Part shown: positions 48,233 to 64,000 of the stretch, one piece after another
Layout: each line of letters opens with the position of its first letter
Position numbering within the stretch: the stretch's first letter is position 1
Assembly: GCA_950295325.1 (NCBI GenBank)
Contig: OX485808.1
Coordinates: 9,612,501 to 9,676,500, forward strand
Length of the DNA stretch: 64,000 nt
Direction: 5' to 3'
Source of the DNA: Polytrichum commune
Taxonomy: Eukaryota; Streptophyta; Polytrichopsida; Polytrichales; Polytrichaceae
Made by a program: the position numbers and the translations under genes
The notes under the pieces: generated by a model
Told to the model about the DNA's origin: nothing
Seen by the model: the letters and a program-made list of their open reading frames with translations, nothing else
Databases searched by the model: none

Positions 48233-48889
48233 CTCACCCCCACCAAACGGAGTCGATGCCCTCATCGACTATACTCGTAGTCGGCACACCAATTCTCAAG
48301 TTGCCATCCTCTATGGTGCGGCATTGTGTTTACCTTAGGGCGCGACCCCCACAATGCATCTTCAAATTTGGCATAGTCCCAAAGGTGTCGTTCCTAGGTG
48401 GTCCATTAGTGACCTTGGATCTCTCCTCCAAGGACCTAACCTACACTAGACCCACCTACTTTGGGACTCATTTGGGTTGCCCCTCCTTTGGGGCCTCCCC
48501 GGTTAGGCTCCACTAGCCTAACATGACACATCTAGGCGAGACCTCAACGCTTCCACTAAGTCGTCTCGGTTGCAACTCCGAGATGGCTTTCCATTGTTAA
48601 GCCACGCCTCGATCGCACGGGGGTGATGCCAAGTCCCGCCCGACTCGGTTCCCACTTTGCTCTTTCGAGACATGGGTTCATGACTCCCATGCGCCAACTC
48701 TCGTTAGCTCGCGGGTTGCACTTTTATGAGCACGCGCCATCACCTTGTCCCCGCCCGGACAAGCCCACAACTAAGAAGTTTCTTGGTTTTATCCAAGGCC
48801 CCTCCAAGCCATGGCCCCCAATTACTCGGCTTACCCAACCTAGTTTGGCATGTCTATTCCCCCTCTTCCATTAACCAAGCACAAGAGCC
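48233..48889 (-). mobile_element. Truncated internal 3' region
   Basis: Non-coding 3' region of the family, matching 19442-20090. It stops at 'accaagcacaag' (48889), where sequence unrelated to the family begins. The pol region, 5' LTR and second target duplication are missing. Confidence 0.8.
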
Positions 48890-49441
48890 ACTAACACTAT
48901 ATTCGTTAAATTGAGACTTTTTGGGCATTTTGAGACATTCATAAAAATAAGAACAAGGATAAATGGAACACATATTGGAGAAAGTTGTAAGATGCGAACA
49001 CTTTGAAGCGGGTGTTTAGACCAAAAAACCCCATATATAACTCATATTTGTGATGGTTTAGGGTGGGCAACCCAAACCTTAGACCAAATTGAAGGGGAAA
49101 CCTTAAAACATTCATATTATTGCACACAAAATATTAGAGCTTGTACGAATATGGTTTAGGTAGGGCAATCCAAACCATAGATCTTATTGAAGGGTTAATA
49201 TGTTAACCAATATAATATGGCATACAAAATATTCCAAACTCATATTTGTGATGGTTTAGGTAGGGCAATCCAAACCTTAGACCATATGGAAGGGGAAATC
49301 ATATGACACTTATATTATTGCAAATAGAACATACAAAGTATGGCATGTAAAATGCATAGCATGCTAACACCTAAACATCCATTGGATAGTGCGACCCAAA
49401 ATGTTCTTGCCTATGGCCCAAAACCCTACGCCTACTATGGC
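48890..49441. repeat. About 100-bp imperfect repeats with GGTTTAGG hairpins
   Basis: Three 24-bp inverted-repeat blocks at 49055-49078, 49153-49176 and 49253-49276 read GGTTTAGG(G)T ... CAAYCCAAACC, each followed by 'ttagaccawattgaagggg'-like text. The region lies just downstream of the last minus-strand exon and may include its 3' UTR. The arms recall the GTTTGGGT palindrome of the neighbouring genes but lack the CG-NN-CG core. Confidence 0.55.
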
Positions 49442-50378: not shown

Positions 50379-51191
50379 TCAAATGAGCTTGTTGAATTTC
50401 GCGTGTGAGAACAACTCTCTGTACAAATGGTCTCGTGGATCCAAGTATCTCTCGCCTATCGGATTGTTCCTAACAAAATTGTTTACAGGTAGCCCGCTAC
50501 CCCAGAGCGCCTGGAGGTATTTACTAAGGTCTAACAAAAATCGGTCCCGGACCTTCTCGACCGTCCATGTAGGGCAAACTATGAGGTTGGCCGTCGGGTT
50601 CAACATGTTCTTTGCGGCGCTGTCGTCCACCATGAGCGTGTTCTCGCGGGTGGGGCGGACGTCGTAGGGGACGCCTATCAAGGACGGACGTTGGTCCCAA
50701 AAAATGGGCTTCAAGACCTTGAGATATTGGGGGGAAGCGGGGTTGTTTGGTTTTTTGACGACTTTGCCGTCAGGTGTGTACAATATTCTACAGGCTTCTT
50801 GTGCTAGGACCATGCAGGGGGGCTCGATGCCCTTGAAGATGAACTCCACGACGGCATTGGTGTTCTCGGCCTTCATGGAGCTCCAGACGACCACCCACCA
50901 TCGTTGTTGGGCGATCTGGAGGAAGGTCCGAAGCCACGGGCGGAGGTGAACTAGTTTGCTCTTTATGAACGTGGGCGGCCCGTCGTAATTAGCGTCCTCG
51001 GGCTTGCAAAAGGGCACCGTGGGGGTCCTAGGGCAATGAACGCATTGGACGAGGACCCCGTTCAGGTCTAACACCAGGAATCGTTTCTTCGGCAGCGGGG
51101 GCGGGGCGGGTAAAACCGGGGGCGCCGCCGCGCTGCCCTCTCCGCTCCTTGGGGAAGAGCGTCGGGGAGCCGCTACGCTATGCTCCGAGCC
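50379..51191 (-). CDS. Exon encoding NIF/FCP1-type HAD phosphatase domain
   Basis: 270 codons from acceptor 'TATCCGCAG|GGC' to a TGA at 50381-50379. After about 35 Pro/Ala/Ser-rich residues comes RFLVLDLNGVLV, the HAD motif I of the NIF/FCP1 (CTD-phosphatase-like) family. WWVVVWSSM is the motif II region and NTLMVDDSAAKNMLNP is the terminal acidic motif. The expected DxD of motif I reads D-L-N, so the general acid/base Asp is replaced by Asn and catalysis may be reduced or lost. No ATG lies between the upstream in-frame TAA and the domain, so the exon needs a 5' partner. The nearest is the phase-0 donor at 51693, which would fuse it to the ParB/methylase-like protein; a separate gene with an unseen first exon is the alternative. 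Confidence 0.65.
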   Translation of the reverse strand, partial: GSEHSVAAPRRSSPRSGEGSAAAPPVLPAPPPLPKKRFLVLDLNGVLVQCVHCPRTPTVPFCKPEDANYDGPPTFIKSKLVHLRPWLRTFLQIAQQRWWVVVWSSMKAENTNAVVEFIFKGIEPPCMVLAQEACRILYTPDGKVVKKPNNPASPQYLKVLKPIFWDQRPSLIGVPYDVRPTRENTLMVDDSAAKNMLNPTANLIVCPTWTVEKVRDRFLLDLSKYLQALWGSGLPVNNFVRNNPIGERYLDPRDHLYRELFSHAKFNKLI

Positions 51192-51650
51192 CTGCGGATA
51201 CGAGCGAGAGAAAACGGGGGCGACTTATGTCATGCTATGTCCAAACGAAGCATTAAGGAAACGAGCGTTCTCGGTGCAAACACAAAAGCATTTGATTCAT
51301 TTTGGAGGGGGTGCAACAAGGGATACAAGGGATACAAGAGCATACAAAATACATTCAAACACAATATACAAGTATATAGGAGTCAAAAATGGTGATTATA
51401 TTATATACAATGCTCTATGTACATCTTGATTGGGGGAGCCGCGTTGAACGATGCGTTCAAACTAGCCTACTTCTACATCTAGAAAAAATTGAAGAGACGG
51501 GCCGCCGTGATGAAGACTTCGTTGCAAAGCCGGGGGTAGGTGGACGAACGAATGGTCGCTGGGGGTGACGAAGGGCGCGAGTGCCGGGGGGGGCCTAAGT
51601 TCGTCCTAGCTAGGGGACACGACCAAGGCAACAAGTCAAAGACCCAGGAA

Positions 51651-51672
51651 GTTTGGGTCGACCGACCCAAAC
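51651..51672. repeat. Palindrome copy, centre AC
   Basis: Perfect arms GTTTGGGTCG and CGACCCAAAC. Lies about 20 bp inside the intron after the donor at 51693. The flanking A and T extend the palindrome to 24 bp. Confidence 0.95.
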
Positions 51673-51693
51673 TGAGTGGGGTCAGTGCATTAC

Positions 51694-53172
51694 CTCGCCT
51701 TGGTCGTGCCTTGACGACGTTGATGCCGGCATCGCGTGCGCTGCCCCACCTCTGTCACCGCCGCCTCCGACGACGCCGTCAGCCGCAACCTGCTCCTGCA
51801 AAGGCTGACTGTCAGGCCTTTGTCCCAACCCAACCTCCGCATGCGCATCATGCATTGGTTCATCGACTGGGTTAGGAGTAGAGGTATCACCAGGCCCTTG
51901 CGGGCCTTCAACATCTAGCATAGGCTCGTCGACCGGGGTCTGATGGGGGACGGGGTTTGGGTCGGCCGACCCAAACCCTGCTGCTTGGCGAGGGTCGCTC
52001 TGCGACGCTGCAACGTCGGCACTGTTTGGGTCGGACGACCCAAACATGTGGGGGTCGTCCCGCTGGTGGTGTGGGGGCAAGAGGATGGGAGGCCGGAGCG
52101 GGGGGGGTGCCAACGAGCTGGACGCTCCGGGGACGCGCCAAAGGTTTGGATCATCCACCTGCTGCACAGGCGCGTAAGGACGGGCGTGCGGCTGCAGCAA
52201 ATCCGCGAAGCTGAAGGAATGCTCCAACGCCGGCCGCGGGCGGATATCCTGTGGAGGGAAGCCTGCGGGCAAGTGAGGGAATGAACTCGGGGGAGCCATC
52301 ACCAATCCCTGCGCCAGCATGCCCTGGATCACTTGCGTGATGAGGTCCGCTTGGGACGGAGTTTGGGACATCGCCCTTTGCCGCTCCTGCTCCAACAGGA
52401 GAGCCCTCAACTCCGCGACTTCGTTGCGGACAGAGGGTTCCTCGGCGGCAGCCCTCTGCAGTCGCACACGCTGCTCCTCGTCTCGGAGCATTTTTGCGTT
52501 CGCCTCCTCCACGGTGAGGACCTCCGGTTTCACCCTCACATTCCCGGCGAACGCTCTGGGGGAGGCAGGATCAGACCTCAGCTTCTTGGCGAGTTCCATG
52601 TCGTCCTCGTCCTCGGAGCTTATTGCGATCGTCTCCTCCACCGCATAGTCCCCGTACAGCTTCTTCCCCTTCATCCTTCTACGCTCCCTGAAGGTGGCCG
52701 TCGCGTCCCTCGAGTACATATCCTTGGCGTCGTCCACCGTCAACGCGGGCACCAGCCTGCTCTGCGGCGTGGCAGGCCGCATGGCCTTCTTCCGCTGAGG
52801 GGCCTCGGATTCTTGAGTGAATCCTGTTGCCCCTTCCTCCACCTCCCCCTCCACTTTCTCTGCTTCCTCCTCCGCCTCCTCCTCGTCTTCCTCCCCCTCC
52901 TCCCCAACCTCGCCACCTGCTCCCATAGACGGATTGCCCGGATGCAACCCGATGAGCGGCTCTGGCAATTGAACGGGGGCCCGCATGGCGAATTCACCCG
53001 GGTTGATTCGCCTCGCAATATCCAAAGGATTCTCGCCCCCCTCGACGATCTCTTCGACGTAGGATCCGGGTATCCAGTCGAGGATGTCCATTCTCTTGGC
53101 CAGCGCCTTTTGGGTCCTGTAGAATTGAACATCGGCATCCTCCACATAGGAGTAGATGTTCAACCCAGACAT
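51694..53172 (-). CDS. Exon 3: end of methylase-like fold, acidic and coiled-coil tail
   Basis: 493 codons in phase 0 from acceptor 'GATTGTGCAG|ATG' to a probable donor 'GGCGAG|GTAATG'; unspliced it would end four codons later at TGA (51684-51682). The first about 30 residues (NIYSYVEDADVQFYRTQKAL) continue the Rossmann-like segment begun in the preceding exon. Then follow a strongly acidic Glu/Asp block about residues 85-110, basic segments (REERRRMKGKK-like), a predicted coiled coil about residues 225-275 (EEQRVRLQRAAAEE..EVAELRALLLEQERQR), and a Pro-rich tail. Two palindrome copies at 52024-52045 and 51955-51976 are translated in the same frame as FGSSDPN and FGSADPN. Nuclear localisation is plausible but inferred. 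Confidence 0.7.
51955..52045. repeat. Two palindrome copies inside coding exon 3
   Basis: 51955-51976 (centre GC; GGG/CCC flanks extend the symmetry to 28 bp) and 52024-52045 (centre GA). They start 69 bp apart, exactly 23 codons. Both are read in the same frame as F-G-S-x-D-P-N. Confidence 0.95.
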
Positions 53173-53256
53173 CTGCACAATCAAAATCAATACTATTAGT
53201 AACACCAAATGAACATATAATGGAAAATGACTTCCAAAACAAAATAAGAATAGTTA

Positions 53257-53350
53257 GTTTGGGTCGCTCGACCCAAACTATGCATGGCCCTAGTTTGGGT
53301 CGCTCGACCCAAACTGTGCATGCCCCTAGTTTGGGTCGTTCGACCCAAAC
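53257..53350. repeat. 36-bp tandem array of palindromes in intron 3
   Basis: Copies at 53257-53278 (CT), 53293-53314 (CT) and 53329-53350 (TT), a period of exactly 36 bp with a TGCATGSCCCTA spacer. The array lies in the 212-bp intron 53173-53384. Confidence 0.95.
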
Positions 53351-53384
53351 CGAACGTATAGGGACTTCTGGGTTTTCTGCTTAC

Positions 53385-54716
53385 AATGGCTGCAAAAATC
53401 GGTTTGGACCCCCCGAAAACGTTGAAGATGCAGTCCCCTCTCTTCGTGAGGGTCCTCATCATCCGCAGGTAGAACTCCATGCGCAGCTCATCCGCGGGGT
53501 AGTTGGCGTACTTCGCCTCGTCATATAAGCTCCTGCTGGTACCCAACCCTTCTTGGACTTGGAAGAGCTTTTCCATCCTGGCTATGGGATGGTTTGGCAC
53601 CTTAACCAGCTCAGCTTTGTACACGAAGTACAAACACAGCACGTTGACGATCTTCGTCTTCTTGTCTTTCAGCGTGCTGTACGCCCCCTCCGCCGGTGCA
53701 GCAACGTAGTGAGATTTCGAGACGGCATACTCCGGCTGCAATTTGCGCACGATCTCGTAAACCTGCTCTGCCCTTCTGTCCTCGACAATCCAGAGCCAGA
53801 CGTCGACCTCCCTGAATTTGGGGCTGCCGTAGTCCACGAACTTCGACAAGAAAGGATCGTAAAAAGGGGTGCTCATAGTCCCCTCGAATGAGGCTCCAGG
53901 GATGTTCCTGAAGTCTATCATTCCGAAGGGGAAGCGGTCCCCGGCTCTAGTCCTGATCGCCTTCCTTGACTCAGAACCCGGCCAACCCTGGATCCTGAGA
54001 GGTTCGACAGTGACCATGTTGAATTGCGCATCGCCTTCGAAACTGACGATCTTCTTCTCCTTTATGAAGTTGGAGAAGGCCCGCACTGAGTGTTCGGGAA
54101 GCGCCCGGTTCCTCCCCCCCTTCACGAGCTTGGATCTGAGGAAGTCGTCTCCCGCCTCCCTCATGAGTGCCGCCATGGACGCACTGGTAAACTTATATTC
54201 GGCTTTGAAGGCCCTCCAGTGCGCCTCGTCGACCTCTCCGTCCACGATGAGCTTCTTCTCTGGCACAAGCTTGTGCAGCTCCTGGACGATGGTCGTCTTC
54301 TTCTTCCTGTTCTCCGTCCATTCCTTCATTGTGTAGCATGAAGGGACGAAGATCTTGGGTTTGGTGAAGACGATCTTAGGGTGGACCCAGCATCTCTTCG
54401 CCGTCGTCTCCACGTGTAGGATGTGGGACGCCGCTTTTCCCATCTCTGTCTCGGAGAGACCTTGAAGCGCTCTGAAGAACTCCCTCACCAGAGGCTTCAT
54501 TTGCTTGAAGCGCGTAGTCTGGTTGAAGAGCATGCCGGTGTCGGGGTCCATGAGGTCCCCCGTCTCGTGTTTTTCAAAAACACTCTTCCATCTTGCCCAT
54601 ACGGAATCGGACGCTGTGATCAAATAGATTTCTCCTCTCAGCTCGTTATACTTTTTCTGCTTGTGGCTAGCATTGTCGATCGAGGAGAATTTATTGATCA
54701 TTTGATATTTGAAGTC
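53385..54716 (-). CDS. Exon 2: DNA amino-methyltransferase-like segment
   Basis: 444 codons, phase 0 at both ends: acceptor 'CCTGTGCAG|GAC', donor 'GCCATT|GTAAGC'. The C-terminal end reads RGDCIFNVFGGSKPIFAAI and, joined to exon 3, continues MSGLNIYSYVEDADVQFY. This resembles motif I of N6-adenine/N4-cytosine DNA methylases (usually LDPFAGSGTTLIAA followed by a G-E-x-D strand). The GSG glycines are altered to GSK, and a convincing DPPY catalytic motif is not visible (VTVEPL or TPFYDPF are the nearest), so activity is doubtful. The N-terminal half is rich in charged helices and unrecognised. Together with exon 1 this recalls prokaryotic and phage ParB-methylase fusions; that comparison is inference from motif order. 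Confidence 0.6.
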
Positions 54717-54778
54717 CTGCACAGGAAGACATTAGCACATGTTAGACAACACATAATGGAAAAACAAATGCAACAGCA

Positions 54779-54971
54779 GTTTGGGTCGAACGACCCAAAC
54801 TATGAACCTGGCGAAAACATCTTAACAATTTCAGAGTTTGGGTCGACCGACCCAAACTATGAACCTGGGGACAATATCAAAATAATTTCAGAGTTTGGGT
54901 CGACCGACCCAAACTATCAACCTGGCGATGACAACAAAACAATGTAGGAGTTTGGGTCGATCGACCCAAAC
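54779..54971. repeat. 57-bp tandem array of palindromes in intron 2
   Basis: Copies at 54779-54800 (AA), 54836-54857 (AC), 54893-54914 (AC) and 54950-54971 (AT), steps of exactly 57 bp. The spacer is 'tatgaacctgg...aatttcagag'. The array occupies most of the 263-bp intron 54717-54979 and begins 8 bp after the donor. Confidence 0.95.
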
Positions 54972-54979
54972 ATACTCAC

Positions 54980-56305
54980 CTCCCATTTGGGGTTCTTGTC
55001 TTTAGCATTCTCCCTTTCCTTGGGAGGCCTTCCATAAAACTCCCACACCTCCCTCGAGGCCATGATGTTTCTGATCCACGATGCCTGATAGGCCCTCTTT
55101 TTGTTCCCCATGTTGAAGAACCTGGAGATGTCGCTGAGGACCGTCTCGTTGTCCGACCAAACCACCAAAGCCTTCCAAACTTTTAGCTTCTCCTTCTGGT
55201 TGTTCGGGTCGTCCCACTCGGTCATCAGCTGGATTTTTTTCGAGGCCTCCACACTGTGCTGCCCGTCAATCAGCCAGAAGTCTCCTTTAGAGATTGCCGG
55301 CCACATCTCAGGCGTCGGCATTCTTTTCAGCCCTTGTGGCATGACAACAATTGTCTGCCTGTCGTCCTTGAACTGCCCGCCCAAGATTTGAGCGACCATC
55401 CAGTCGACGTAGGCGTCCTCCTTGGCTCGGACGCACTTCTCTGGTGGCGCAAGGTGGCACTGCGCAATGTTGACCTCGAATTTGAAGTCCCTGCCCATGA
55501 AGAAGCAGTGCAGGCATTTTGTCTCGAAGTTGTTGTTTATTTTTTGTATTTCGCCTGCATCCACCTCTTGGCCAGGCTTCGGCATCCGGAGCTCCGGGGA
55601 AACAGGCTCGTCAGTCATCCCCGATGACTCTCTTCCCCTCTTGGAAGGGGTCGTCTGACGGCTTCCTGATGGCGTTGGCGTCTCGCTGTCAGCCGGCGTT
55701 GTTGTAGTGCTCGTCCGTCTCGAGTCTGCAGGGACCGCCCGCGGTTTCCTCACAGTTTGTGGTCTTGAGGACCCTGCGCCTTCTTCCGTCGTTGCCTTCC
55801 GCCTCACAGGCTGCTGCGTCTTGGGTTTGCTTTGCAGCGCCTTGTTGAGAACCGTGATAGCCTGTTTTAACTTCGTGAACCTGCTCGCAACCTTCGTGTT
55901 CGTTACACTACCATCTATGAATATGGCCTCCGGTTTTATGGTTTCAGGGTCGACGCAAGTCTCCTTGGCGTACAGGGGGTCGAAGGGCTCGGAGAACTGG
56001 TGCATGAACATGTGGACGTTCTGCACGGCGGAGTTCTCCAGTATCACGTCTACGTAGTCCCCGAGAGACTGGACGGACGCAACCTCCCATCCCGTCAGCG
56101 TTGCCCAGGTGTGCTGCTCGTGGGTCCCCACCTTCACCACGAATAGCAGCTTGAACATGGATGCCTTCACCACCTGAACGGACCATGCCAAAACGACGCC
56201 ATCTTTTGGGACGTAAGAATCGTCCTGTGGAGTTTCATACTCCTGCCAAAGGTGGTCTGGCGCGAGCATGAACCACCTTTCACCTGGTCTCTTTTTAGGG
56301 GCCAT
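54980..56305 (-). CDS. Exon 1: ParB-like DGQH domain protein
   Basis: 442 codons from ATG (56305-56303) to donor 'TGGGAG|GTGAGT', phase 0. The ATG directly follows acceptor 'TTGGATTGCAG', so the first exon upstream is untranslated; MAPKKRPGERWF is the natural start. About residues 1-130 form an unrecognised folded region. Residues about 150-240 are a Ser/Thr/Pro/Arg-rich linker. Residues about 255-440 carry FWLIDGQHSVEASKKIQ, which resembles the D-G-x-H-R-x-x-A box of the ParB/sulfiredoxin-like superfamily, followed by ALVVWSDNE and helical sequence with RFFNMGNKKR, as in ParB-like proteins where an Asn-rich helix follows. The usual HR is HS here. Role in DNA binding or nucleotide hydrolysis is inferred, not shown. 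Confidence 0.65.
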
Positions 56306-57865
56306 CTGCAATCCAAGAAATCGAAACTGTGAGTTTCGGTCGATCGACCCAAAGTATTGCAATGTGCATTTAACATTTGGAGGATTGACCCAAACATTTA
56401 CTTAATTTTCAAAGTCGTTTTAAAAGATCTTTTAGATTTTAAAGTGTGGTTTAGGTGGTCACCCTGTAATGTTTGGGTCGAGCGACCCAAACATGATGAG
56501 GCTGCAAATTTAGGTATCTCAACACATTCATTTCAGACTGCAATGTTTGGGTCGAACGACCCAAACAATTACTTAATTTTCGAAGTTCTTTTATATTTTA
56601 CAATGTGGTTTAGTTCTTCTCCTTGTAATGTTTGGGTCGAGCGACCCAAATATGTTAGGCTGCAAATTTAGGTAGCTCAACCCATTCATTTCAGACTGCA
56701 ATGTTTGGGTCGAACGACCCAAACAATTACTTAATTTTCAAATTTCTTTTTTATTTTACAATGTGCTTTAGTTCTTCTCCCTGTAATGTTTGGGTCGACC
56801 GACCGAAACATGTTAGGTTGCAAATTTAGGTAGCTCAACCCAATCATTTCAGACTGCAATGTTTGGGTCGAACGACCCAAACATTCACTTAATTTTTGAA
56901 GTTCTTTTATATTTTACAATGTGGTTTAGTTCTTCTCCCTGTAATGTTTGGGTCGAGCGACCCAAACATGTTAGGCTGCAAATTTAGGTACCCAAACCCA
57001 GTCATTTCAGACTGCAATGTTTGGGTCGAACGACCCAAACAATTACTTAATTTTCGAAGTTCTTTTATATTTTACAATGTGGTTTAGTTCTTCTCCCTGT
57101 AATGTTTGGGTCGAGCGACCCAAATATGTTAGGCTGCAAATTTAGGTAGCTCAACCCATTCATTTCAGACTGCAATGTTTGGGTCGAACGACCCAAACAA
57201 TTACTTAATTTTCAAAGTTCTTTTATATTTTACAATGTGGTTTAGTTCTTCTCCCTGTAATGTTTGGGTCGAGCGACCCAAATATGTTAGGCTGCAAATT
57301 TAGGTAGCTCAACCCATTCATTTCAGACTGCAATGTTTGGGTCGAACGACCCAAACATTCACTTAATTTTCAAAGTTCTTTTATATTTTACAATGTGGTT
57401 TAGTTCTTCTCCCTGTAATGTTTGGGTCGAGCGACCCAAACATGTTAGGCTGCAAATTTAGGTACCTCAACCCAGTCATTTCAGTCTGCAATGTTTGGGT
57501 CGAACGACCCAAACATTTACTTAATTTTTGAAGTTCTTTTATATTTTACAATGTGGTTTAGTTCTTCTCCCTGTAATGTTTGGGTCGAGCGACCCAAACA
57601 TAATGAGGCTCCAATGTTTGGGTCGCTCGACCCAAACAAGAGGCTGCAATGTTTGGGTCGAACGACCCAAACATTTAGTTCATTTTAGGCTGCAATTCAA
57701 ATATTTATTATATTTTAATATGAGTTTGGGTCGTCTCCCCAAACTACTGTGTTTCCAGATGCATGTTTAATGCTTGGGCAACATATACAATGCTTATGCA
57801 TTGTATATGTAACAGGAACCTAAAGGGAATGATGCAAATTGTGTGCACTGATGCAAATTGCTTAC
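56306..57865 (-). other. Intron 1 (leader intron) filled with palindromes
   Basis: 1560-bp intron in the 5' UTR: donor 'GACAAG|GTAAGC' at 57866/57865, acceptor 'GGATTGCAG' ending at 56306. It holds 17 palindromes plus three decayed ones. Leader introns in plants often raise expression, so the array is placed where it could affect transcription or splicing; that is inference. Confidence 0.65.
56333..57744. repeat. 158-bp tandem array with paired palindromes
   Basis: Two interleaved series. Centre AG (one AC): 56471, 56630, 56788, 56946, 57104, 57262, 57420, 57578. Centre AA: 56545, 56703, 56861, 57019, 57177, 57335, 57493, 57651. Successive members of each series are 158 bp apart (one step 159), with 73-74 bp from AG to AA. 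A CT copy sits at 57616. Last-base changes occur at 56630, 57104 and 57262 (AAAT) and an arm change at 56788. Decayed copies lie at 56333-56354, about 56374-56395 and 57724-57744. Confidence 0.95.
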
Positions 57866-58480
57866 CTTGTCTTTCAAACTCTTGAAAGCTGCTCTCACAA
57901 TCTGCTTCTTACAACCAGACTCAGAAACTCTGTTGTGGCACTAAAGAACAACTCTCACAAAGATCTCAGAAACACAATGAATCTCTCAAGCACCCTAAAA
58001 CTTTCTCACAAACCCCCTGATTCTTGCAAACTCAGGCCTAATTTGAAAGACCTCTACATTTCTATCACACTCGACCGTGCTCACTTCTACTCAACCTAAA
58101 ATCACTCCATGCATGAATTTTACAAAACAAGTAAGGAGTTCAACACAATAAACCGCTCCGAACTCACTCAAAGCTAACACTCTGGACCAAGAAGAGAGAA
58201 TAAGAAGAGGAAGACAATAACACGAGGAATAGAATGAGAGAAGAGGAGGAGAAGCATCAGAGAGGAGGAGAGGAATGAAGGAGAAAGAAGAATGAAGGGA
58301 AGCGGCGCGACCAAGACAAAAGCAAAAGGTGCGAGAGGAAGCGCTTGGCGCGGCGCTATGGAAAGCGGCGGCGGCGTTTCCAAGAGCGGCGCTTGGCGCG
58401 GAGGAAGAGAGGAAGAAAAAAAGAGAAAGGAAAAAGAGGAGGGGAGAGAAGGAGAGAGCGGAAGGGGTCACCCTAAACCC
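57866..58480 (-). other. 5' UTR exon of the ParB/methylase-like gene
   Basis: Ends at donor 'AAAGACAAG|GTAAGC'. The upstream part (58160-58480) is pyrimidine-rich on the coding strand (CTCTTCT runs), typical of plant leaders and core promoters. The only short ATG frame nearby stops within eight codons. The transcription start is not determined; 58300-58480 is an estimate. Confidence 0.45.
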
Positions 58481-58527
58481 TCGAATCCGGGCCATTAGAT
58501 TGCGCCGGGCCCATCAACGGCTCAGAA

Positions 58528-58592
58528 GCCTCGCGGGCCAACACCTTGCCAGGTGTCGACACCTCCTTGGTTTAGGTGGTTGCCCGCGAGGC
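58528..58592. repeat. Inverted repeat with central 14-bp palindrome
   Basis: Arms 58528-58545 (GCCTCGCGGGCCAACACC) and 58575-58592 (its near-perfect reverse complement) flank the palindrome AGGTGTCGACACCT at 58551-58564. It sits just upstream of the presumed promoter of the minus-strand gene. Confidence 0.75.
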
Positions 58593-59248
58593 TTGTGGTG
58601 TTGACACCTGCCACCCTAGGGAGATTGCCTTCCTGGTTGTCCTTGCCCCTAGGTGCGGGACATAGGAGGGCCGGCGCCTCTCTTGGCCGCCCGGCCCCGG
58701 CCTTCTAACCCGCTATTCATTAGCGGCAATTCAATACCACTCAAAAACCTACGTGGACTAAGGTATTCCACAAAATTAACACCATCACCAACTCATATTT
58801 TAATGGTGTTCAATTGAATGATCACCCGTTGGAATTGATAACATCGTTGAATGTAGCCATTATCGTTTTGGTGTATGAATAATGTAATTTATGGAATCAT
58901 ATGAGAGTGTTACAAAGTCTAAGAGGAGTAAGTCATAATTATATTGCAATCCACAAAGGCAATTACACGGTGCAATAATATAAATATGGTAACCATTCAC
59001 ATGGTTAACAGTTTAGGATTATGTATTGTAATTTATATGATGGTTGTTGGTAGAGGACAATGCTCTAGTCTATAATGGATACCCTAACAAGTAGCATTAG
59101 AGTGAACATTAATATATGTACTTAGAAGTTCACATTTGAAGTACATGGGAGAAACAAATGATTACAAATGTATCTACTGCAACCCCATGGAGTTCACATA
59201 TCATATGAAGTCATTTAAACATTCAGTTTGATGTTTGATGATGCCTGA

Positions 59249-59285
59249 ACCCTAAACCCTAAACCCTAAACCCTAAACCTTAAAC
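59249..59285. repeat. Interstitial telomere-like tract, (CCCTAAA)n
   Basis: About four perfect CCCTAAA units and one variant (CCTTAAAC). This is the land-plant telomere heptamer; in promoters it is known as the telo-box. Too short to be a telomere. Confidence 0.9.
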
Positions 59286-60094
59286 AACACAAACCATAAC
59301 TGGATGGCACATAGGTCAAATGACATGGGCCTTGGTGCTTGTAGTTTCCAATACAAATGTATATTGTCATCACAACATCCTAATTCACAAACGTGAAAGA
59401 TGGATGTGTGGTTTTTCACGAATGAACGCACTAAAGGAAATAAACGATATTGTGCTCACAAGTAGGTGATACAATATTAACCTATAACCTTGTCACCTGG
59501 TAAGAAAAGCATAAGAACTAGATTATAATGGATAGGATGTTGTTCATGTTAACATGTTATTTGGAATAGTGAAATATTATATATTAATTTAAAGTAGATT
59601 TCATGTTGTGAATGATATGAGGACATACCTTTTGAACTTTGCATGTTTTGCTCACACACATTGGTAGAGTTCAAGGGACTTCACGATAGGTTCAAACATC
59701 CTTGGAAGATTGAACGTGCCAAATGTCATTTGTGGTTTAGGGTTCCATTAATGACTTCCACATAGGTACTAGGTTATTGTCACACTTGGAGTCTTGAGGA
59801 TGAAGCAATATTGGGTGCACACATTACAACACAACATATGTTCTTTTAATTAGCAGAAATTGAAAGTTGGCCAAATTATTCAAGTTTGTCATGGCATTAA
59901 TTATTTGTTTTCAAAATATAAGTCCTCATGTGAGAGTCTAAATAATAGCATTAACTATTATATTTAGTGACTTTTAGTATATGAAGTTTTATAATACATG
60001 CACATCTTTTGTCAATATATTGTTTGAAATATACCATAATGTTTGACTACAAGTAGAGTAAAACCCCTTAATAGATATAATCTTACATATTGTC

Positions 60095-60227
60095 ATAGGG
60101 TTATTGGTATTTAGTGTATGCGTTCATATGTAGTGTATCAAAACCTTTATATCCTTTTTAGTTATATGATAGTTAGTGTTTGATACACTTAAAACGAACG
60201 CATACACTTCCCATTACTAACCCTATG
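60095..60227. repeat. Imperfect inverted repeat, MITE-like
   Basis: AGTGTATGCGTTC at about 60113-60125 pairs perfectly with 60196-60208, AGTGTATCAAA at 60132-60142 pairs with 60179-60189, and CATAGGGTT at about 60095-60103 pairs with AACCCTATG at 60219-60227. The hairpin spans about 133 bp with a loop of about 36 bp. Confidence 0.8.
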
Positions 60228-60628
60228 AGAGTAAGTAACATTAAATGTAAACTCAAACACTAAATATCCACTATGGTGATATATGGAAGTTACATATAGG
60301 GATTTAGTATTAGTAAGGATGTGAGAAAAATATACAACAATGATAAAAGGAGAAAGGAGATGGCAATAGGGAAGGTGGTGGTGTATTCATGTATAAAACT
60401 AATTATGAAAGAGTTGAAGAATAGTGTTGACCAAGTTAGGGTGGTAACAACTTTAAATATATGTTGAATTATTCATTTGGTGGTTGGGGCAACGAAGAGC
60501 CAAGCTAAATATACATTCTCTATTATTGACAAGAAGCGGGAAATTGAGTCAGAAGGTTTGAATTAACCTCCAAAGGAGACCAGGTGGGAAAGGCATCCAA
60601 AGAGGATGCCCAAAGCGGAGGCGGGTAG

Positions 60629-60636
60629 TATAAAGA
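60629..60636 (+). promoter_or_regulatory. Possible TATA box
   Basis: GTATAAAGAG in a GC-richer island, followed about 30 bp later by a CT-rich start-like segment (TTCTTTCTTTC). It is oriented toward the palindrome array and the DUF7869-type gene. Weak evidence; a retroelement LTR promoter is an alternative. Confidence 0.3.
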
Positions 60637-60849
60637 GCCCAACCCCCCCAAATGCTGGTTCTTTCTTTCATGTCCCAATCCTGAGATTGCTGCAAGCTCT
60701 CTAAGTTGGAGCTGTAATACACGGTTTGTATACGCTTCCATTCATGAGCAGCTAATTACAACAAGCATCTATGAGTTCAGTTGTCCCAAATAGGTTATAA
60801 ATAGATTAATAGAGCATCACCCGAATAAATAGGCGGATTTTGCGGAATT

Positions 60850-61808
60850 GTTTGGGTCGGTCGACCCAAACCCAGCCTTACAGTGTGGGTGCTCTCTGTA
60901 TTGAGCCAGAACCCATCCTGCCTCAAGGTTTGGGTCGATCGACCCAAACCCAGCCCTACAGTGTGGGTGCTCACTGTTGTGAGCCTGAACCCATCCTGCC
61001 TCATGGTTTGGGTCGATCGACCCAAACCCAGCCCTACAGTGTGGGTGCTCACTGTTGTGAGCATGAACCCATCCTGCCTCATGGTTTGGGTCGGTCGACC
61101 CAAACCCAGCCTTACAGTGTGGGTGCTCTCTGTTGTGAGCCTGAACCCATCCTGCCTCATGGTTTGGGTCGATCGACCCAAACCCAGCCCTACAGTGTGG
61201 GTGCTCACTGTTGTGAGCCTGAACCCATCCTGCCTCATGGTTTGGGTCGATCGACCCAAACCCAGCCCTACAGTGTGGGTGCTCACTGTTGTGAGCCTGA
61301 ACCCATCCTGCCTCATGGTTTGGGTCGGTCGACCCAAACCCAGCCTTACAGTGTGGGTGCTCTCTGTTGTGAGCCTGAACCCATCCTGCCTCATGGTTTG
61401 GGTCGATCGACCCAAACCCAGCCCTACAGTGTGGGTGCTCATTGTTGTGAGCCTGAACCCATCCTGCCTCATGGTTTGGGTCGATCGACCCAAACCTAGC
61501 CCTACACTGTGGGTGCTCACTGTTGTGAGCCTGAACCCATCCTGCAAAAAGGTTTGGGTCGCTCGACCCAAACCCAGCCCTCTAAGTGTGGGTGCTCCCT
61601 GTCGTGACCCAAAACCCATTCTGCCAAAAGGTTTGGGTCGCTCGACCCAAACCCAGCCCCTAAGTGTGGATGCTGTCTGTAGTGAGCCTAAACCCATCCT
61701 GCCAGAAGGTTTGGGTCGCTCGACCCAAATCCAGCGCCTAAGTGTGGGTGCTCTCTGTATTGAGCCTGAACCCATCCTCCCAAAAGGTTTGGGTCGCTCG
61801 ACCCAAAC
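60850..61808. repeat. 78-bp tandem array, 13 palindromes
   Basis: Copies start at 60850, 60928, 61006, 61084, 61162, 61240, 61318, 61396, 61474, 61552, 61631, 61709 and 61787; all steps are 78 bp except one of 79. Centres run GT, AT, AT, GT, AT, AT, GT, AT, AT, then CT four times, so a three-unit higher-order period (234 bp) is visible in the first nine. The 56-bp spacer carries 'cagtgtgggtgctc' and 'gagcctgaacccatcctgcc'. 78 is a multiple of three, which explains long open frames on both strands. Confidence 0.95.
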
Positions 61809-62021
61809 CCAGCCTCTAAGTGTGGTTGGGATCTGGGTGCCGGTGTGGCCACTGGCCTTCCGAAACCTTTGCAAGCCCAATGGCATAGCAGTCATATGAA
61901 CTTGTATGAGCACTGAGTATTTGCAATTTTGTTTATATATGATGGTTTTTTTGTTCTTCGATTTGAACCTACAATTTTTGTGATTTTAAGACAATGTTCA
62001 ATGTTCATGTGTGTAGGCAGA

Positions 62022-63465
62022 ATGGATGGGTTTAGTGAAATAGGGGATTGGTCATCTGATGACATGGCCACTTGGCCATCTGCATCTGATGATGACCTAG
62101 ACATTGTCGGGGAGGCTACTATGGCTGACAGTGCGGATGAAGATCATTTGGATTTACCTTCGTCTTCCGTACCGCAGTGTCCCATTGTTGAATGTACGGG
62201 ACTTTCAAGGGCTTCGTGGGTGAATTTGGAGGTGATACTTCTTAACGATAGTGGAGTTGTTGTGGCGGAGGGGATTTGCCGTAACACCCATCCGCAAGAT
62301 TGCATTGATGAAAACCCGCTTGGCACTGAGGACGTTGGGGTTGTCATATTGGAGTCGGTCGTTCATTCCGAGGTGGATCCCACTCATAGGTTCTCCCTCC
62401 GCAGGTGGCCATTGAGGAATGTCACAATTGATGGAGTTAGCTTGCGTGAACATGAGCAACGACACATGCAAATCGAAAAGGAGGTGCAATCAAACATGCG
62501 GCCGCGCAAGGGTCAAAGAAAGTACGATACATTGGCACGTCCTGCTCCGTCTGCAACTGATTGTAAACGTCAAAGGTTGCTCGGGGAGGAGTCCATTAGA
62601 GAAGTTGCCACAAAGGATTGTTGTGTGCATCGTTGTTGCCAATTGTTTCCAAGGGATAAATTGAAGGTCATCCGCGAAGAAATGTGGCTTGGAGATTTCC
62701 GTCTAAGATCCACAAGAAAACTTGATGTCCATAGGGCGATACATGTGAATGGGACGGGTCGCAAGGTCATCACCATTGAAAGCATAGACGTGTGTTGTAA
62801 GGCATGGTACACCATTCACGGTGTGTCGAAATCGGACTTTTATAGACAAGCTGCTTATGCCAAGGAAGGCCGCCGGTCCCGTCACCATGGTAACGTGGGT
62901 TTAAAGAAGCCTAGGGAAGCAACAAGGCAAGCAACGGCCACTCTAGCAACCATCATTGTCCCTCTTGCCGATGCAATGCCGCACAAAACACGCACACTCA
63001 CAACCGGTGAAAAGGTTGTGGAGAAAGTTCTTCCCACAGGCACAAAATGGAAAGACATATTGTTGGACGTTAATGCAGTTGGCGAGAAGATTGGGTTGGA
63101 GCCAATTTCATTGTCAAAATTGAGTGCAATCAAGAAACAAAACTTTAGCGAATACATTACAAAAAGACGAGGGGACAAATTTGCCAGGTGCTCTAATTGC
63201 GAGAAGTTGAAGCGCCTCCGGGATGCACACACGATGGGCACCGAGTCATATGCAGCGCATCAATTGAACTATTTCAAGCACGTAAACATGCAAGAGGCAC
63301 ACCGTAATGATTACTACACAAATAGAGCTTTGTCCATCTCCAGGCCCTTGGAGGTTCTTACGGTCATCCATGACAAAATGGACCATGCCAAAACAGCCTC
63401 CCCATGTTTTGCAAATCGAATCAAGGCCACGGATGGGTTTTTCAAGTTGCCTGTATCGGTTACAG
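62022..63465 (+). CDS. DUF7869-type protein, exon 1
   Basis: 481 codons plus one base from the ATG at 62022, chosen because it follows a plausible acceptor (TGTGTAGGCAG) and begins a sensible acidic N-terminus (MDGFSEIGDWSSDD); upstream codons are open but hydrophobic and without ATG support at the front. About residues 1-50 are acidic. Residues about 200-210 form a cysteine cluster, DCCVHRCCQLFPRDKL, followed by VCCKAWYTIHGVS, both characteristic of the large plant and animal family that ends in the DUF7869 domain and is thought to be transposase-derived. Donor 'TTACAG|GTGAAC' at 63465/63466 leaves phase 1. It is preceded by the 78-bp palindrome array. Confidence 0.7.
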
Positions 63466-63599
63466 GTGAACTTCGAAACAATGTCATGACATACCCTAAA
63501 TGTTGTTGTATTTTATTCCGTGATGTACTGGAGAACATGGATTCCTTCATAATGGTTTATTCATACATAGATGCTAATCACGTTGGGTTGGCATTGCAG
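63466..63599 (+). other. 134-bp GT-AG intron
   Basis: Donor ACAG|GTGAAC, acceptor GGCATTGCAG|GA. Splicing joins SVTG to MIAHGHGDV in frame and removes an in-frame TGA just after the acceptor. The joined V-T-G-M-I-x-H-G run is the expected family order. Confidence 0.75.
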
Positions 63600-64000
63600 G
63601 AATGATTGCACATGGACACGGTGATGTCAAATTTGCCCATTATGCTCTTGATTTGTATCCAGCGGATTCAAACCACACGATAGGATCATTTGCAAGGCTT
63701 TTACGTGATTTAGAGAAACCACCAGCCTATTCTTCAGGATTGTTATTTGAGAACACGGGTTCAACACCTTTATATGAAGCGGTGTTGGATGGAAAAGATG
63801 TATGCTTGCATTCGTTGCCCGAGCCACCCAATGAACCCGTGATTGCCAAGAAGTTGCCTCCAACTTTGCGTGTCCAATTGGACAATTGTGCCAAGGACAA
63901 TAAAAGCAGATATGTATTTGCATATTGGTCGTTGTTGGTTGCGAAAGGCATTTTCAAGGAGGTTTTTGTGTCCTTCCTATTGGTAGGCCACACGCACGAT
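63600..64000 (+). CDS. DUF7869-type protein, exon 2 (cut by window end)
   Basis: Open from the acceptor to the last base. Carries MIAHGHGDVKFAHYALDLYP, then LRVQLDNCAKDNKSRYVFAY and VSFLLVGHTHD. The L-D-N-x-x-x-x-N-K and V-G-H-T-H-D motifs are the hallmark of DUF7869, proposed to be an RNase-H-like nuclease fold with these Asp and His residues in the active site. The gene continues beyond the window. Whether it is a host gene or the transposase of an element cannot be decided here; no terminal inverted repeats were found around it. Confidence 0.75.

Follow-up and report, generated by a model that had tools for sequence, protein, structure and literature searches.

A stretch of 64,000 nucleotides from the moss Polytrichum commune (contig OX485808.1 of assembly GCA_950295325.1, positions 9,612,501 to 9,676,500 of the forward strand; hereafter the window) contains many copies of a short palindrome, GTTTGGGTCG-NN-CGACCCAAAC, within a large Sola-like DNA transposon. 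Allowing up to three mismatches, 41 sites are found, all within 51651-61808: 35 have perfect arms, five have one mismatch and one (56333) has two. At the same threshold positions 1-51650 hold none, and 100 dinucleotide shuffles of the window sequence gave none. A preliminary description of this DNA had counted 40 copies, 35 of them perfect, concentrated in two genes and absent from 49 kb of retroelements. The repeat is real, with 35 perfect arms and no copy in the retroelements; the count is 41, and the two genes are transcription units of a single transposon which begins at 48893. At least two transposon families carry the palindrome as a built-in part; it occurs ahead of both genes and within introns, increases in number as a unit of arrays and keeps constant arms while the surrounding DNA changes.

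Two genes share the locus. The plus-strand gene is transposase-like (61917..64000, continuing to about L039:1083, L numbers denoting stretches of the source genome; the start codon is not fixed) and matches DUF7869 (PF25273) from 63578, with E values of 2.8e-27 and 3.7e-08 on two pieces. The minus-strand gene comprises exon 1 (54980..56305), exon 2 (53385..54716) and exon 3 (51685..53172, a 72% identical frame being found in the relative L056); its splice sites were read by eye and the 3′ end of exon 3 is approximate. An open frame on the same strand (50382..51224), with an NLI-interacting-factor (FCP1-like) phosphatase domain (PF03031, E 4.5e-15), is probably a later exon of this gene.

Four tandem arrays with periods of 36, 57, 158 and 78 bp hold most of the palindromes. 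The 78-bp array (60850..61825) places 13 sites, one with a mismatch, upstream of the plus-strand gene, and the 158-bp array (56333..57672) places 18 upstream of the minus-strand gene, 13 of them perfect, four with one mismatch and one with two. Intron 1 harbors the 57-bp array (54779..54971, four sites) and intron 2 the 36-bp array (53257..53350, three sites). Two single palindromes (51955-51976 and 52024-52045) lie inside coding exon 3, where they are translated as FGSADPN and FGSSDPN, and one (51651..51672), retained in L056, lies just downstream of the end of exon 3 in predicted intron 3. Palindromes begin 8, 34 and 21 nucleotides inside the three predicted introns, the 57-bp array starting 8 nucleotides inside the donor. 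Since most copies sit in tandem arrays, they are mostly not independent and represent about 8-9 independent placements. Homologues of the exons in a large protein database, some possibly from the same genome, show the translated palindrome in three frames (FGSxDPN, LGRxTQ and WVxRPK); the translation appears where homologue frames overrun the exon, with exon 1 in 16 of 49 homologues (identity as low as 68%) and with exon 2 in 13 of 49 (as low as 64%). Overrunning frames such as VSGDRPK and FGPVGPN may stem from symmetric variants of the site.

The carrier measures 16.7 kb and extends from 48893 through the end of the window to L039:1618, 1,618 bases further. It is flanked by a CACT target-site duplication (48889..48892 and L039:1619-1622) and bounded by 28-bp terminal inverted repeats, the left one, AACACTATATTCGTTAAATTGAGACTTT, at 48893..48920 on the plus strand and its inverse at L039:1591-1618; the inverted ends read AACACTATATTCG... 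and ...CGAATATAGTGTT. The homology of two other copies begins at 48892-48893, to within a base. Six copies were looked at for target duplications: two had no left end in the stretch fetched, and the four with both ends all showed 4-bp duplications (CACT, ATTT, AAAT and CTTA). As one end reads AACACTA, a CACTA identity was considered and dropped because the duplications are of 4 bp, not 3. The Sola-like assignment fits the 4-bp duplications, the size and the occurrence in a moss; candidate aspartates for a putative Sola-type DDD transposase were seen by eye. Sola elements, in the accessible portion of PMC10741241, show 4-bp target duplications and terminal inverted repeats, sometimes exceed 15 kb and are found in the moss Physcomitrella. 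The window element shares the duplications, the inverted repeats and the large size, and differs by the addition of a ParB/methyltransferase/NIF gene and of palindrome arrays. Near its left end (49039-49298) there is also a 98-bp array with a palindrome-like core, GGTTTAGGTAGGGCAATCCAAACC.

Part of this family is young, as the first 33 matches to exon 1 in the source genome are 99-100% identical (96 matches were scored out of 1,105 genomic candidates, the window's own included). Array size varies: over 30 loci (L009-L038, with L013 being the window's own copy) intron 1 contains 2-4 sites and the 1,500 bases upstream of exon 1 contain 6-18.

Internal binding sites for the transposase or for a protein assisting it, in the manner of the subterminal repeats which CACTA elements carry, could account for the 13-site array directly upstream of the transposase-like gene. 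We consider this explanation unlikely: perfect sites are missing from the outermost 2.7 kb on the left and from the final 3.8 kb on the right, palindromes are present in introns and coding DNA as well, and the transposase of the second family described below is unrelated.

Genome-wide, the palindrome is abundant. A search of the source genome (407.8 Mb, 64 contigs) returned 9,231 copies with perfect arms, where chance would give about 0.00025 (assuming 46% GC), and the reversed control pattern had no copy. Two findings named beforehand as fatal to the preliminary description, confinement to the locus and a match to a transposon terminus, are thus contradicted, the second because the palindrome is internal to the transposons. 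The first 100 sites listed all lie in the initial 2.2 Mb of C1. Of these, 59 were read inside two transposon families (in L001, L002, L007, L030, L055, L056 and L057), 39 were assigned to them by position (C1:616088-617337, 624419-626089, 1189171-1190810 and 2124727-2125765) and the other two, a pair of perfect palindromes at L005 (C1:475338-475391), could be assigned to neither family from their surroundings. The same arms with spacers of 3-12 bases occur at 169 places; all 50 of those listed have a spacer of 11 and belong to a repeat of another kind, a dispersed 31-bp hairpin, GTTTGGGTCGAGCAAAATGCTCGACCCAAAC, in which the palindrome's arms and an 11-base spacer lie within a short repeat (L059:2527 and L060:2452). 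A prokaryotic or viral origin of the palindrome was rejected, with no match in a prokaryote genome collection, from which records very near the source genome may be excluded, or in IMG/VR under the same limit.

The second family is represented by L001, L002, L007 and L057, which share a transposon-like unit with arms identical to those of the Sola-like element. One of its frames is read as a MULE-like transposase from its sequence; Pfam returned nothing for it, and seven frames of the Sola-like element found no tblastn match in L001, L002, L005, L007 or L057. In this unit 32-bp palindrome arrays immediately precede a gene in which a DGNHR box is followed, further on, by a DNA-methyltransferase segment (phrog_3008, E 5e-5). 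A possible kinship of this ParB-like exon to exon 1 of the Sola-like element was sought by profile comparison and not confirmed, either with a single sequence or with an alignment. Another palindrome, CCCTGTGCGT-TA-ACGCACAGGG, is present in five copies each in L002 and in L057:4852-5873, upstream of the ParB-like gene of the MULE-like unit.

Identical arms in two families whose proteins do not match are what one would expect if a dimeric transcription factor or chromatin protein of the host bound the palindrome and several transposon families had collected it for expression or escape from silencing. Sites crowd ahead of genes and into first introns, in agreement with such a host reader, which we treat as the main and serious rival while judging it rather improbable. 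Against it, 98 of the first 100 listed sites are tied to the two transposon families and none to an ordinary host gene, in a sample which is small and drawn from one chromosome end. Furthermore, 20 perfectly matched bases are more than a host factor would be expected to require.

The arms are far better conserved than their surroundings, as a comparison proposed in the preliminary description now confirms. Entropy was computed over 37 intron-1 units of 57 bp, aligned without gaps, from ten loci: the window and nine diverged copies (L046-L054) hand-picked to span 91-97% exon 1 identity. Mean entropy rises from 0.05 bit in the arms to 0.66 in the centre and 1.08 in the spacer, the last value being inflated by the array-final unit, which adjoins non-array intron. 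The first intron-1 units alone, which this does not affect, differ by 1.0% in the arms and 24% in the spacers. In L056, at 85% exon 1 identity, the three palindromes in and next to exon 3 match at 60 of 60 arm bases, as against 1138 of 1437 positions (79%) in the remaining alignment of this region, with 146 gap columns, and 187 of 237 in the 60-base flanks. Since 24 of 1,421 other 22-base windows of that alignment are equally well kept, one such site would be unremarkable, whereas three together are remarkable. Sites also hold their positions in L055 and L056, with an intron-1 spacing of 46-49 and an array of period near 64 upstream of the transposase. Judging by this conservation, the palindrome is under selection.

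What is selected can be narrowed down from the pattern of mismatches. In the fetched loci (L003, L004, L006, L008 and L013 being left out as overlaps) there are 713 sites, mostly recent duplicates; 176 are imperfect and 70 have two or more mismatches. A symmetric arm change which would keep a stem is seen in one of these 70, and the sole symmetric variant searched, GTTTCGGTCG-NN-CGACCGAAAC, has no copy in the genome. The centre, formerly described as free, is indeed variable, yet pyrimidine-purine steps are avoided: they account for 38 of the 9,231 sites, all CA/TG, with neither CG nor TA, as against about a quarter expected from equal use of the sixteen values. The rarity of symmetric changes and this avoidance point to a protein reading DNA, the middle step perhaps being felt through DNA shape. 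Arm conservation, asymmetric mismatches and centre bias together support, at the level of sequence constraint, the earlier suggestion of a site for a symmetric dimer.

The hairpin-forming unit suggested alongside it is not favoured by the mismatch pattern. A selected RNA or cruciform hairpin, serving as a splicing aid or small-RNA source, would suit the distances at which sites begin inside the predicted introns. It would also suit the next pair outside the arms, which is complementary (A-T, T-A or G-C) in 60 of 76 distinct Sola-like sites, with 26 expected, and in all eight hand-picked window representatives, while positions 2-6 beyond the arms are without signal; as the sites share array ancestry, these counts are not independent. 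In the MULE-like family the pair is complementary in 9 of 18 sites, with eight expected, and thus shows no excess. A 2-nucleotide loop gives no ground for avoiding TA and CG yet allowing AT and GC, and Rfam contains no known RNA family matching the palindrome. We therefore find a selected hairpin quite improbable. Inverted duplication of an 11-base half may have given rise to the sites.

Least probable of all, in our view, is a tiny self-spreading palindromic element, likened in the preliminary description to Rickettsia palindromic elements and the palindromes of Volvox organelles. These are short and occur in many copies, some of them in coding DNA. The palindrome shares these features, and its identical arms stand at unrelated flanks in two transposon families. 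It differs in being part of a transposon, fixed in sequence and multiplied as array units: copies grow by whole units, ride in large transposons and keep their places across diverged copies. Direct repeats of at least three bases beside the sites are at chance level (1 of 94 distinct sites, 1.8 expected). Two-base repeats are somewhat more frequent than expected (17 of 94, as compared with 7.7 for shuffled pairings, from the same non-independent sites), so that a 2-bp target duplication is conceivable. No empty site was noticed, though without a systematic search.

On these sequence grounds we give about an even chance to the following interpretation: large DNA transposons carry the palindrome as a cis-acting site, and its reader is a symmetric, dimeric and sequence-specific protein which the transposon itself would encode. 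The most likely reader would be the product of the minus-strand gene. Structure models assign a ParB/Noc/Srx-type N-domain fold to residues 274-405 of exon 1 (WLIDGQHSVEA) and a beta-class DNA methyltransferase fold to residues 225-444 of exon 2. Dense arrays would load this reader onto the element's own control regions and leave host genes untouched. Once loaded, it might mark the element, shield it from silencing in the manner of VANC on VANDAL, or set up transposition. A ParB-type protein which spreads from its sites would suit an anti-silencing task, such spreading being putative here. A bolder and clearly less probable version, which we put forward tentatively, is a eukaryotic ParB-parS-like system: a ParB-methyltransferase fusion would load on thousands of self-carried palindromes of 22-24 bp to mark or shield its element, and the Sola-like and MULE-like families, unrelated to each other, would have arrived at one shared site by convergence, each with a ParB-methyltransferase gene of its own.

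Several results weigh against a transposon-encoded reader of this kind. In Foldseek neither model has a match at E <= 0.001, the best values being 5.1e-3 and 5.0e-3. The ParB CTP-binding box is GERRxR, and DGQHSVEA in exon 1 lacks arginines at its place. The catalytic motif IV of beta-class methyltransferases is (D/N/S)PP(Y/F/W); here DFRxxP, family-conserved and not DPPY, stands at the end of the corresponding strand, as placed by eye. With both boxes altered, the protein may no longer switch with CTP or methylate its substrate. No helix that would read the DNA could be located in exon 1, the model residues past about 400 being of low confidence. The second family has the same palindrome, yet its ParB-like match is limited to the DGNHR box, which a profile comparison with exon 1 did not bear out (probability 0.16%), so that a shared host reader fits as well. 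Lastly, a simple half-site reading leaves the complementary outer pair unexplained. Sequence searches returned nothing from Pfam for exons 1-3 or from PHROGs for exons 1 and 2, one chance-level NCBIfam match for exons 1 and 2, the only exons searched there, and chance-level matches in the PDB.

Other palindromes of similar form exist in this genome. Outside 51651-61808 the window contains two perfect 10-2-10 palindromes, GGCGCTGTCC-CG-GGACAGCGCC and GGACTTCCAT-GG-ATGGAAGTCC, in 18 and 14 copies; they apparently lie in retroelement repeats, where they are seen in L039. A tandem array at L039:4060-5220, adjoining LTR-like repeats, comprises nine perfect copies of a further 22-bp palindrome, ACCCTCTCGG-TT-CCGAGAGGGT. 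Three shuffles of the window gave no palindrome of the 10-2-10 form.

Sequence-specific self-recognition by plant transposons is known mainly from the Arabidopsis VANC proteins of VANDAL elements, which are Mutator-type. According to the accessible text of PMC5735166 and PMC10398659, VANC binding to motif-dense tandem repeats lifts the silencing of the element. In both systems, as far as these texts describe VANDAL, a short motif is tandemly arrayed in introns, in intergenic DNA and upstream of the transposase, repeat number is variable and high density is reached only in the transposon. They differ in that the VANC21 motif, as given there, is a 9-bp YAGTATTAY and no palindrome. VANC targets are also described, in the portions available, as varying considerably between related transposons, whereas the arms of the window element are constant across subfamilies and in a second family. 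Moreover, the window element has 4-bp target duplications, unlike the 7-12 bp which the accessible part of PMC10741241 gives for Mutator, and its gene has predicted ParB and methyltransferase folds.

ParB-parS and Noc-NBS resemble the present case in that a ParB-fold domain is encoded beside palindromic sites. The parS oligonucleotide in the available text of PMC8367383 is a palindrome containing GTTT...AAAC. It is set apart by its 16 bp (PMC8494293, as far as accessible) and fixed centre; the element here does not keep GERRxR and has thousands of sites inside eukaryote transposons. In prophage ParB-type methyltransferases, for instance the Wolbachia met genes, a ParB-like domain stands ahead of an adenine methyltransferase in the accessible portion of PMC3089641. 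The minus-strand gene has the same domain order, and differs in being split by introns, altered in motif IV and borne by a eukaryotic transposon.

Among the open-licence PubMed Central papers listed by our searches, none describes this palindrome, DUF7869 or plant transposons with ParB-methyltransferase genes. Retrotransposons that have acquired methyltransferases are known, on the available text of PMC5890265; with the present gene, ParB and base-methyltransferase folds would be located within DNA transposons of eukaryotes. Should the ParB-like part of the second family prove genuine, one and the same combination of gene type and site would occur in two unrelated transposons. With thousands of naturally occurring variants of the site, the pairing of protein and site is open to direct testing. 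If true, our interpretation would add a second solution to transposon self-recognition, unrelated to VANC, with a clearer site of 22-24 bp and a protein of bacterial type.

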